NCBI GenBank assembly: GCA_031270065.1
Contig: JAISYF010000005.1
Span: 1 to 39,825, forward strand
DNA: 39,825 bases
Reading direction: 5' to 3'
Source: Prevotellaceae bacterium
GTDB taxonomy: Bacteria > Bacteroidota > Bacteroidia > Bacteroidales > Paludibacteraceae
The notes under the pieces are model-generated. The model saw only the letters and a program-made list of their open reading frames with translations. It searched no databases and had not been told where the DNA came from. Position 1 is the first letter of the stretch. Each line of letters begins with the position of its first letter. The translations under genes were made by a program, and so were the position numbers. Shown here piece by piece: positions 29,067-36,903 of the stretch.

Positions 29067-29077
29067 GAATATATATG

Positions 29078-30961
29078 ATGTCAGATTTAACAATTTTTTT
29101 GCCAACAACAAAAAAGGAACTTGAAATTCGCGGCTGGAACGAGGTTGATGTGGTACTGTTTTCTGGCGATGCCTATATTGACCACCCCTCTTTCGGCGCA
29201 GCGGTTATCGGCAGAGTGATTGAAAATCAGGGACTTAGAGTGGCGATTGTGCCGCAGCCGAATTGGCGAGACGACCTGCGCGACTTCAAAAAAATGGGTG
29301 TTCCGCGCTTGTTTTTCGCAATTTCGGCGGGCTGTATGGACTCGAAAGTCAATCACTACACCGCCAACCGCCGACTACGCTCAAATGACGCCTATTCGCC
29401 TGATAATCAGGCAGGTTTCCGCCCCGACAACGCTACGATAGTTTATTCAAATATTCTCAAACGTCTTTACCCGAACACGCCTGTGATAATAGGCGGAATT
29501 GAGGCATCGCTGCGCCGTTTTTCGCACTACGACTATTGGAACGACAGGTTGGAAAAGTCGATTTTGATTGATTCCAAAGCCGATATTCTTGTATATGGAA
29601 TGGGCGAAAAACCGATTATTGATATTATAAATGCGTTGAAAAACGGCAAAAAAATTGAGGATTTGCGCGATATTCCGCAAATTGCATACGCAGTTTCAAC
29701 CCTGCCTGCCCTGTTTCAACCCTGTCATTGCGGACTTGACCCGCAATCCCCTGAAAAAAAGGAAATTCCTACTTTCACGGGAATAACAGAGGTGATAGAG
29801 TTATTTTCTTATGAACAATGTTTGAAAAATAAGAAAAAATCGGCGCAAAATTTTAGAATTATTGAAGAACAATCAAACAGTTTTTCGGCAAAAATTCTTG
29901 TGCAAAAAACTGATAATCAATATGTTATCGTTAATCCGCCGAATGTGGTAATGACGAGCGCGGAGTTAGACAAAATTCACGCTTTGCCTTTTACGCGCCT
30001 TCCGCACCCGAAGTACAAAGGCAAGAGAATTCCTGCCTACGAAATGATAAAATTTTCGATTAACACGCATCGCGGCTGCTTTGGCGGCTGCTCGTTTTGC
30101 ACTATTTCGGCGCATCAGGGCAAGTTTATCGTATCGCGTTCAGAAAAATCAATTTTAGAAGAAGTAAAAAAAGTATCACAACTGCCTGATTTTAAGGGTT
30201 ATATATCGGATTTAGGCGGTCCTTCAGCGAATATGTATCGCTTGGCAGGCAAAAATTTTGAGTTGTGCAAAAAATGCCGCCGCCCGTCCTGCATTTTTCC
30301 AAAAATCTGCAACAACCTGAATATCAGCCACAAACCATTGCTCGAACTTTACAAAAAAGTTGATTCGCTGCCTCAAATCAAAAAAAGTTTTATCGGTAGC
30401 GGAGTTCGTTACGATATTCTGTTGCACCGCACAGACGACAAAATGCAAAACGCTGATTTAGAGCAATATACGGAGGAGTTAATTAAAAATCACGTTTCGG
30501 GGCGGTTGAAAATTGCGCCCGAACATACATCAAAAAAAGTGCTTGATTTGGTGCGCAAGCCCAATTTTTCACTGTTCAAAGATTTTAAGGAAATTTTTGA
30601 TAAAATAAATACAAAACACTCTCTAAATCAGCAACTTATACCTTATTTTATTTCGTCTTTACCCGAATGTTCGCCCGAAAATATGGCGGAACTCGCAGCG
30701 GAAGTCAAGCACTTGAATTTTCGGCTCGAACAGGTGCAGGATTTCACGCCCACGCCGATGACTTTGGCAACCGAAATGTTTTACACAGGGCTAAATCCCT
30801 ACACTTTGGAAAAAATTTTTATCGCCAAAAATCCCAAAGAAAAAACCGAACAAAAAATATTTTTCTTCGCTTATAAAAAAGAATATAAACAGCAGATTTA
30901 TAATATTTTAACAAAATTAAAAAGGTTTGATTTGATACAAAAATTCAAAAATTCAATTTGA
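29078..30961 (+). CDS. YgiQ family radical SAM protein with a repeat-derived insertion
   Basis: A 627-residue radical SAM enzyme of the YgiQ family (activity unknown). It has the family N-terminus (LPTTKKELEIRGWNEVDVVL, FSGDAYIDHPSFGAAVIGRV), the iron-sulfur Cys triad in HRGCFGGCSFC (Cys334, 338, 341), AHQGKFIVSRSE, the DLGGPSANMY motif, a Cys-rich segment (CKKCRRPSCIFPKIC) and LKIAPEHTS. ATG 29078 is chosen over 29075 and an upstream TTG. Residues about 211-239 (29708-29794) do not fit the family: they are an in-frame copy of a dispersed palindromic repeat, read as HCGLDPQS and flanks, between the normal blocks DIPQIAYAVSTLP and IELFSYEQCL. The frame is intact, so the protein may still work. 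Confidence 0.93.
   Translation: MSDLTIFLPTTKKELEIRGWNEVDVVLFSGDAYIDHPSFGAAVIGRVIENQGLRVAIVPQPNWRDDLRDFKKMGVPRLFFAISAGCMDSKVNHYTANRRLRSNDAYSPDNQAGFRPDNATIVYSNILKRLYPNTPVIIGGIEASLRRFSHYDYWNDRLEKSILIDSKADILVYGMGEKPIIDIINALKNGKKIEDLRDIPQIAYAVSTLPALFQPCHCGLDPQSPEKKEIPTFTGITEVIELFSYEQCLKNKKKSAQNFRIIEEQSNSFSAKILVQKTDNQYVIVNPPNVVMTSAELDKIHALPFTRLPHPKYKGKRIPAYEMIKFSINTHRGCFGGCSFCTISAHQGKFIVSRSEKSILEEVKKVSQLPDFKGYISDLGGPSANMYRLAGKNFELCKKCRRPSCIFPKICNNLNISHKPLLELYKKVDSLPQIKKSFIGSGVRYDILLHRTDDKMQNADLEQYTEELIKNHVSGRLKIAPEHTSKKVLDLVRKPNFSLFKDFKEIFDKINTKHSLNQQLIPYFISSLPECSPENMAELAAEVKHLNFRLEQVQDFTPTPMTLATEMFYTGLNPYTLEKIFIAKNPKEKTEQKIFFFAYKKEYKQQIYNILTKLKRFDLIQKFKNSI
29719..29788. repeat. Dispersed palindromic repeat inserted in the ygiQ gene
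   Basis: Bases 29719-29748 match the reverse complement of 420-450, with palindrome arms CATTGCGG and CCCGCAAT. A second small hairpin follows (ATTCC with GGAAT, about 29765-29785). The extra stretch relative to the usual family protein is about 29 codons (29708-29794) and keeps the reading frame. Confidence 0.8.
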
Positions 30962-31031
30962 AAATTTGAGGATTTGAAAATTTGAAAATTTGAAAATGCA
31001 AAATGCAATTTGAAAATTCTCAAATTGCATT
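30951..31031. repeat. AT-rich octamer array, left flank of the large palindrome
   Basis: AATTTGAAAA/AATTTGAGG units begin inside the last codons of the ygiQ gene; its stop codon (30959-30961) is within the array. The array runs up to the 269-bp palindrome and is mirrored by the array at 31301-31460. Confidence 0.75.
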
Positions 31032-31300
31032 TATGCCGTAGGCATTTAATATCGGTAGAAAATGCCAATTTCCCCCACGCTGCACGCCGTAGGTGTGCAA
31101 CAAAATACACACCGCAGAATTATGAATTATAATTTGGGATTGGGATTGTAGGGGCGAACCTATGTGTTCGCCCCCTACACAAAGGGCGAACACACAGGTT
31201 TGCCCATACACAAAATATTCTTCCTCTTGTTGCACACCTACGGCGTGCAGCGTGGGGGGGGAATTGGCATTTTCTACCTATATTAAATGCCTACGGCATA
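31032..31300. mobile_element. 269-bp near-perfect palindrome, MITE-like
   Basis: Arms 31032-31102 and 31228-31300 are reverse complements with two substitutions and a two-base length difference in a C-run. Each arm carries its own small palindromes (TATGCCGTAGGCAT; TGCACGCCGTAGGTGTGCA). The 125-base centre includes two GC-rich hairpins (GTAGGGGCGAAC with GTTCGCCCC, 31148-31177; and GGGCGAAC to GTTTGCCC, 31184-31205). No gene is inside. It lies between convergent genes and is flanked by octamer arrays. It looks like a non-autonomous mobile element or a composite of dispersed palindromes; no target-site duplication was clear. Confidence 0.7.
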
Positions 31301-31460
31301 TTGAAAATTTGAAAATTTGAAATTAAAATCCCAAAATCCTCAAATTCTCATTGAATTTTCAAATTTTCAAATTGCATTTTCAAATCTTCAAATCCTCAAA
31401 TTTTCAAATTGTATTTTGCATTTTGCATTTTCAAATCCTCAAATCCTCAAATTTTCAAAT
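31301..31460. repeat. AT-rich octamer array, right flank of the large palindrome
   Basis: About 160 bases of CAAATTTT, CAAATCCT, CAAATCTT and TGCATTTT units reaching to the stop codon of the metalloprotease gene. In reverse complement it resembles the left-flank array, so the whole 30951-31460 region is a nested palindrome between two convergent genes. Confidence 0.75.
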
Positions 31461-36550: not shown

Positions 36551-36903
36551 CAGACACAAGTAATTAGACACAAGACACAAGTTAAATACAAATTGCATTT
36601 TTAATTTCTTCATTTCTTAATTTCTTAATTTATTTCACAGAGTTTTCACAGAGAAACACAGAGTTTTTTTAATTTCTTCATTGTTTTGTACGCCACTGAT
36701 TACCCTGCTCTCCCCTCTTTGATAAATGTTTCTAAACTTTTGAAAAGTTTTTGAACTTTTCAAAAGTTGTGCATTTTGTTGGTTTTTAGCGTTTTTTTTA
36801 AAAGCGGGCTCAGCCCGCTTTTAAAAATTAGAGAGTACTCTCTAATTTTTAATTTTTTTTATTAGCTATTTTTCGTTTTTAAAATTCGGTGCAAAGGTAA
36901 TAC
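36551..36903 (-). repeat. Copy 2 of the conserved leader-like repeat, upstream of the FISUMP-like gene
   Basis: On the minus strand, TACCTTTG (36892-36899; -33 position only T-rich) is followed by a perfect 32-base palindrome (36821-36852), a GC stem of 15 bp with a 3-base loop (36795-36809 with 36813-36827) and a third perfect 15-bp stem with loop TTTG (36735-36749 with 36754-36768) that copy 1 lacks. The conserved block at 36673-36736 matches 133-195. The segment at 36551-36587 matches 35-70. Between those blocks the copies differ by unrelated insertions, here including CACAGAG repeats. The GC stem differs from copy 1 at both arms in a paired way. The gene start is about 420 bases from the predicted transcript start; 36463-36550 shows nothing else. 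Confidence 0.75.

Follow-up and report, generated by a model that had tools for sequence, protein, structure and literature searches.

Why does the YgiQ protein encoded at this locus carry a loop of 34 residues where nearly all of its relatives have a short one, and what is the origin of the extra sequence? The gene lies in the window, the 39,825-nt stretch of DNA analysed here, which belongs to a 239-contig draft genome of 2.77 Mb (G000). A first-pass annotation had proposed that a dispersed palindromic repeat is inserted in frame in this YgiQ-type radical SAM gene, and both the length of the loop and the 66-nt copies found elsewhere bear this out. The locus and its relative within the window are organised as follows.

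29075–30961, + strand: ygiQ, the YgiQ-family radical SAM gene that carries the insert (TIGR03904, 810 bits for a cut-off of 462).
29693–29724, + strand: 12-bp direct repeat GTTTCAACCCTG, copies at 29693–29704 and 29713–29724 with a 20-nt period, directly preceding the insert.
29723–29788, + strand: in-frame REP heterodimer of 22 codons, CHCGLDPQSPEKKEIPTFTGIT; full 66-nt copies with identical ends occur elsewhere, and it is absent from 108 homologues.
29723–29747, + strand: REP-A, with tag TGTC (29723–29726), stem ATTGCGGA (29727–29734), loop CTTGA (29735–29739) and stem CCCGCAAT (29740–29747), 7 of 8 positions paired; about 120 copies in the genome.
29765–29788, − strand: REP-B, with tag TGTT (29788–29785), arms at 29765–29772 and 29777–29784 (stem ATTCCTAC/ACGGGAAT) and loop TTTC (29773–29776); intact versions in genomes G001 and G025.
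30077–30100, + strand: CxxxCxxC cluster-binding motif, CFGGCSFC, intact by its sequence.
412–449, − strand: intergenic relative of REP-A with a 6-nt loop (covariance model, 42.4 bits).

To place the insert, the window protein was aligned with YgiQ homologues, 29 of them taken from whole genomes and 80 from named genomes. Judged by YgiQ, the closest named relatives are largely Paludibacter and Paludibacteraceae. The loop that follows the IPQxAY motif, up to the next strand, has 10–15 residues in 108 homologues; it has 34 in the window gene and 36 in its congener G001, whose YgiQ is 82% identical to the window protein. Removing the 22 insert codons leaves a loop of 12 residues, a common length in the family. 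What had been described as an interrupted conserved stretch is conserved in its length, while its sequence is variable. The insert is translated in silico, exactly on codon borders, as C H C G L D P Q S P E K K E I P T F T G I T (peptide stretch at the site: CHCGLDPQSPEK). Since 66 nt is a multiple of three and frame 0 is open, YgiQ becomes 22 residues longer without being broken. The frame is indeed kept and the catalytic motif is intact, as first noted: the three cysteines of CxxxCxxC, invariant in YgiQ (60 homologues), lie more than 90 residues downstream of the insert. In an AlphaFold2 model of the protein (mean pLDDT 77.7), the insert corresponds to residues 219–240, between the strands 205–209 and 242–245, and falls almost wholly within a low-confidence loop with pLDDT below 50, a value that may stem from the lack of homologues there. 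We found no solved YgiQ structure, only a weak match to MgmA (9ccb, E = 0.004), and the fold neighbours are B12-type radical SAM enzymes.

The limits of the unit could be fixed at 29723–29788 because full-length copies in G001 and in G025, which belongs to a different genus of the family, start with TGTCATT, end with AATGACA and mostly measure exactly 66 nt. The window copy keeps both ends, its right end reading AATAACA. The insertion itself stands as proposed, with 66 nt and 22 codons instead of the 29 codons and the limits 29708–29794 given initially. The TGTCATT/AATGACA ends form short terminal inverted repeats, and no target-site duplication was seen when the surroundings of full copies were inspected by eye. 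The unit is made of two CGTC/TGTC-tagged REPs placed head to head. The second small hairpin noticed at the outset is REP-B, which is partly decayed: 2 of its 8 stem positions are unpaired and its end tag is TGTT, not TGTC. Compared with shuffled sequences, the window 66-mer folds as DNA with a z-score of −4.4 (−1.9 and −0.6 for the neighbouring 66-mers), and a less decayed copy from G025 reaches −5.1 with both 8-bp stems visible.

These traits are those of the CGTC REPs described by Di Nocera et al. (2013, PMC3733652). CGTC REPs are tagged by CGTC, often by TGTC or CCTC, have stems of 8–9 bp starting with AT and loops of 4–5 nt, and are mostly arranged as head-to-head dimers, some of them intragenic; no transposase was found for them, and RPE-4 and RPE-6 of R. 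conorii are counted among them (PMC3733652). The window element resembles the CGTC-1 and CGTC-2 families, with a TGTC tag (29723–29726; CGTC in G004 copies) and 8-bp stems starting with AT: ATTGCGGG/CCCGCAAT around the 5-nt loop CTTGA and, for the second hairpin of a less decayed copy, ATTCTGAC/GTCAGAAT around the 4-nt loop TTTC. It is likewise a head-to-head dimer with many copies, some of them intragenic, and no dedicated transposase was found beside it in the loci around 12 Y1_Tnp genes. The tails observed at REP copies are CCCC, CTCC and CTCA, where CGTC REPs mostly have CCA. The window element belongs to the CGTC REP superfamily and works like an RPE. As Rickettsia palindromic elements do, to which it is likened by its mode of insertion, it places a selfish palindrome in frame in unrelated and apparently functional genes; it differs from them by its host, a Bacteroidales genome and so of another phylum, and by its size, 66 nt versus about 100–150 nt for RPE-1. 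With bacterial MITEs (reviewed in PMC10969869) it shares its non-autonomy, short terminal inverted repeats and fusions with host frames, but it is smaller and shows no target-site duplication.

We then asked how widely the repeat is dispersed. A pattern search for REP-A in the window's own genome, allowing at most 3 mismatches, returned 22 copies (0 for the reversed control), and a covariance model retrieved 120 copies of the REP-A family. A DNA search with the 77-nt repeat region gave 49 matches in G000, 64 in G001, 48 in G004, 68 in G025, 2 in G003 and none in G002; REP dimers are present in the first four of these genomes. The 66-nt unit is 83–93% identical to many copies elsewhere. The repeat at 420–450, of which the insert had been called a copy, is a relative from a different subfamily; the element there (412–449) has a 6-nt loop.

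The surroundings were read for 114 of the 120 covariance-model copies, a copy being called genic when the open frame around it spans 180 codons or more and extends for more than 30 codons on either side. By this definition 20 of the 24 copies with a 5-nt loop are genic, versus 1 of the 90 remaining copies, mostly with a 6-nt loop (Fisher p = 2e-17), a test limited by the fact that gene-breaking insertions cannot be counted where an open frame is demanded. Of random positions, 58% fall in genes in the fetched loci and 77% in the window, so that the genic share of the 5-nt-loop subfamily is close to that of the genome as a whole. Gene targeting by this subfamily was considered and rejected, its genic share only mildly exceeding the coding background; what stands out strongly is that the other copies are almost never found in genes, and we do not claim targeting. 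These other copies behave like an ordinary extragenic palindrome. Several intergenic copies with a 6-nt loop (e.g. loci L202–L219) share a longer and nearly identical unit, TTATACCCGACTTTCGATGTTGTG-CCCTGTCATTGCGGGCTTTGACCC..., so that they look like a young, purely extragenic subfamily; the upstream extension TTATACCCGACTTTCGATGTTGTG is not shared by genic copies and was not retained as part of the element. The IMG/VR contig IMGVR_UViG_2820487239_000001 (L365:4100–4180) also holds a REP dimer, whose two arms have loops of 6 nt and 5 nt, and may represent a carrier or a host flank.

As had been advised, other genes with such an insert were looked for, and about a dozen further core-gene hosts were identified: dapF, aroB (with two REPs), mnmG, prfC, pheT, dus, mtaB, metH, alr, nqrA, aroA and an OmpA-like gene. 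The names of dapF, prfC, mnmG and aroB come from PDB matches, and the others were read from sequence. Alignments with orthologues or PDB entries place extra residues at the REP: 57 in MnmG, lacking in 15/15 relatives, 26 in AroB, 9–10 in DapF, 13 in PrfC, 12 in PheT, 10 in MtaB, 8 in Dus, 9 in the OmpA-like protein and 32 in Alr (25 of which are also missing in G001). Extra residues at the REP are also found in MetH and AroA. None of these extras exists in G002, a genome with no detectable element, wherever an orthologue was found, although G002 and G003 are nearly free of copies and an empty site there could also be read as a loss. G001 and G025 have in-frame copies of their own, for example CHCGLDPQSPEEKGIPAFAGMT in a G025 frame of 460 codons that reads like a ketoacyl synthase. 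Three candidates were discarded: MnmE (+2 residues) and a glycosyltransferase (+5 residues), for which the matches were too weak, and a match on contig C10 that precedes the probable start of its gene. In the metH frame (L198, G000:C12), TAGADFQSV and THCCGLEQSNQSNNDREEH stand besides EIAGQARND and look like further repeat-derived peptides.

Among the 20 genic 5-nt-loop copies, 18 by our own count use one of two hydrophilic frames, HCGLDPQS or IAGQARND, out of four open ones (p = 2e-4). This bias suggests that the peptides are produced and then filtered by selection; alternatively, it may reflect a target preference tied to the frame. Annotators should be aware that peptides like CHCGLDPQS and EIAGQARND derive from repeats.

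In the congener G001, the YgiQ loop has a similar length and an unrelated sequence. This was the very observation proposed as the sign of a natural variable loop, and it concerns G001 alone. Its 36 residues are themselves encoded by dispersed repeats, unrelated to the window REP: the DNA reads TGTAGGGGCGCGATTAATCGCGCTAC..., with the first 22–23 nt recurring exactly at several other places in G001. Next comes an inverted pair, CGCCGATTTGCAATCGG...; relatives of this pair are frequent in G025 and also occur in G000. Given that the G001 loop is built of dispersed repeats and that 108 homologues are short-looped, the site is a permissive loop entered by repeats and no natural long variable loop. 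Twelve host genes have a G001 orthologue, and in 8 of them the G001 protein is longer by at least 4 residues at the exact REP gap; five of these gaps (YgiQ, DapF, MtaB, MetH and Alr) hold another sequence: a different hairpin whose motif is also in G025 (DapF), an AT-rich tandem repeat (MtaB), a REP-B dimer with arms recurring in G001 (MetH) and a short AATTACG tandem (Alr). The gaps of PheT and AroA contain REPs of the same family, possibly inherited, and that of PrfC four residues. By our own tally, G001 has some 21 extra stretches over 5415 anchor positions of the host genes, hence a chance expectation at REP sites of about 0.05, or of about 0.5 if only one-tenth of the positions accept insertions, for 5 to 8 observed; this estimate is rough and applies to a chosen set of genes. 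The simplest reading would be that a few loops tolerate insertion and get refilled.

The insertion, its frame, its dispersal, its host genes and the same-site occupancy in the sister species are direct observations, and they are very probably explained by a short non-autonomous palindromic element, a head-to-head CGTC/TGTC REP dimer, that inserted in a permissive loop of ygiQ in this lineage. It would have entered about a dozen other core genes in the same way, and tolerant sites would be visited repeatedly by different repeat families. The added segment has been retained in the reading frame. Most probably it is translated, has no ordered structure and is nearly neutral, so that a selfish repeat would have become part of YgiQ in the manner of an RPE. 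Functional adoption, in which the peptide or the mRNA hairpin has acquired a role in YgiQ such as metal or partner binding or translational pausing, would account for the preserved frame, for both hairpins being still recognisable and for the two cysteines brought by the insert. We consider it unlikely: the same peptide occurs in unrelated enzymes, these cysteines are lost in other genic copies (SHCG, CNCG, CYCG), the second hairpin is decaying and relatives work without the insert.

In other systems, hairpins are known to be bypassed during translation, and the strong hairpins found here would also suit an element spliced out of the RNA or skipped by the ribosome, which would never reach the protein. 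Such a removal requires neither a multiple of three nor a stop-free frame, whereas the copies in genes have no stops and are read mostly in two hydrophilic frames, which makes it very improbable. Ordinary divergence of a fast-evolving loop that resembles a repeat by chance could invoke the variable sequence of this loop in all YgiQ homologues, G001 included; it is contradicted by the 66-nt match to many copies elsewhere at 83–93% identity, by the narrow length range of the homologues and by the dispersed-repeat nature of the G001 sequence. This last reading is hardly credible and is already refuted by copy number and length distribution. Finally, a draft assembly might raise the suspicion of an artefact or a pseudogene, which is next to inconceivable given frames open for hundreds of residues, intact motifs, many core genes concerned and the same architecture in G001, G004 and G025.

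In-frame REPs were already known, and recB of two Xanthomonas species has been reported to hold different REPs at about the same position (PMC3733652). Our literature search found HCGLDPQS in no paper and, apart from the general survey of CGTC REPs, no report of in-frame palindromes in Bacteroidetes. The extent of the phenomenon in this Bacteroidales genus and the turnover of unrelated repeats at the same sites go further than the reports found. Compared with the CGTC REPs previously described, the intragenic share is much higher here for one subfamily, REPs are replaced at the same site by non-REP repeats and the host belongs to the Bacteroidales. The known range of in-frame insertion of selfish repeats, best documented in Rickettsia, thereby comes to include many conserved enzymes in a Bacteroidales genus whose genomes measure 2–3 Mb. 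Corresponding protein loops that hold different repeats in sister species constitute a natural experiment, in which one can test whether tolerance is due to the site (loop permissiveness) or to the element (length in threes, open hydrophilic frames). A bolder proposal, plausible although we lean slightly against it, is that particular loops of core enzymes are recurrent landing sites where one selfish repeat is displaced or followed by another, unrelated one without loss of protein function, and that the 66-nt REP dimer with a 5-nt loop persists mainly through its coding-compatible length and open frames.

As for mobility, the small non-autonomous hairpin would be moved in trans by an enzyme, HUH-type or other. 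A Y1 transposase (RAYT) was rejected as the driver: the gene is found in 24 of 37 genomes, is not associated with the element in the flanks read and is absent from the copy-rich G004. The 3.3-kb loci around 12 Y1_Tnp genes, that of the own genome included, contain no copy of the element. The only Y1_Tnp gene found in G000 (L187; G000:C74, 3660–4004) has other repeats beside it, the direct repeat CGCCCCTACGGGGCTTTTTGTAGGG...TTCCTAACGGAACAG occurring on both sides, so that this gene may drive a GTAG-type family. The window element resembles GTAG REPs associated with RAYT by its short hairpin repeats, and the first repeat of the G001 YgiQ loop begins with TGTAGGGG; it differs from them by its CGTC-type tag and by not lying beside a Y1 transposase gene.

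Other repeats were noticed in the window. Just past ygiQ, at 31014–31318, inverted arms of 63 nt (87% complementary) surround a GTAGGGGCGAAC...GTTCGCCCC palindrome, in what resembles a MITE enclosing a GTAG-type repeat. A two-part direct duplication, 93% and 88% identical, links 124–302 and 36666–36859, 36.5 kb apart, and contains a GCGGGCTC-GCCCGC palindrome. Finally, 41-nt inverted arms (AGAACAAAGAACAAAGACCGCTACGC...), 98% complementary and 104 nt apart, lie at 477–517 and 622–662, beside the REP copy at 412–449.
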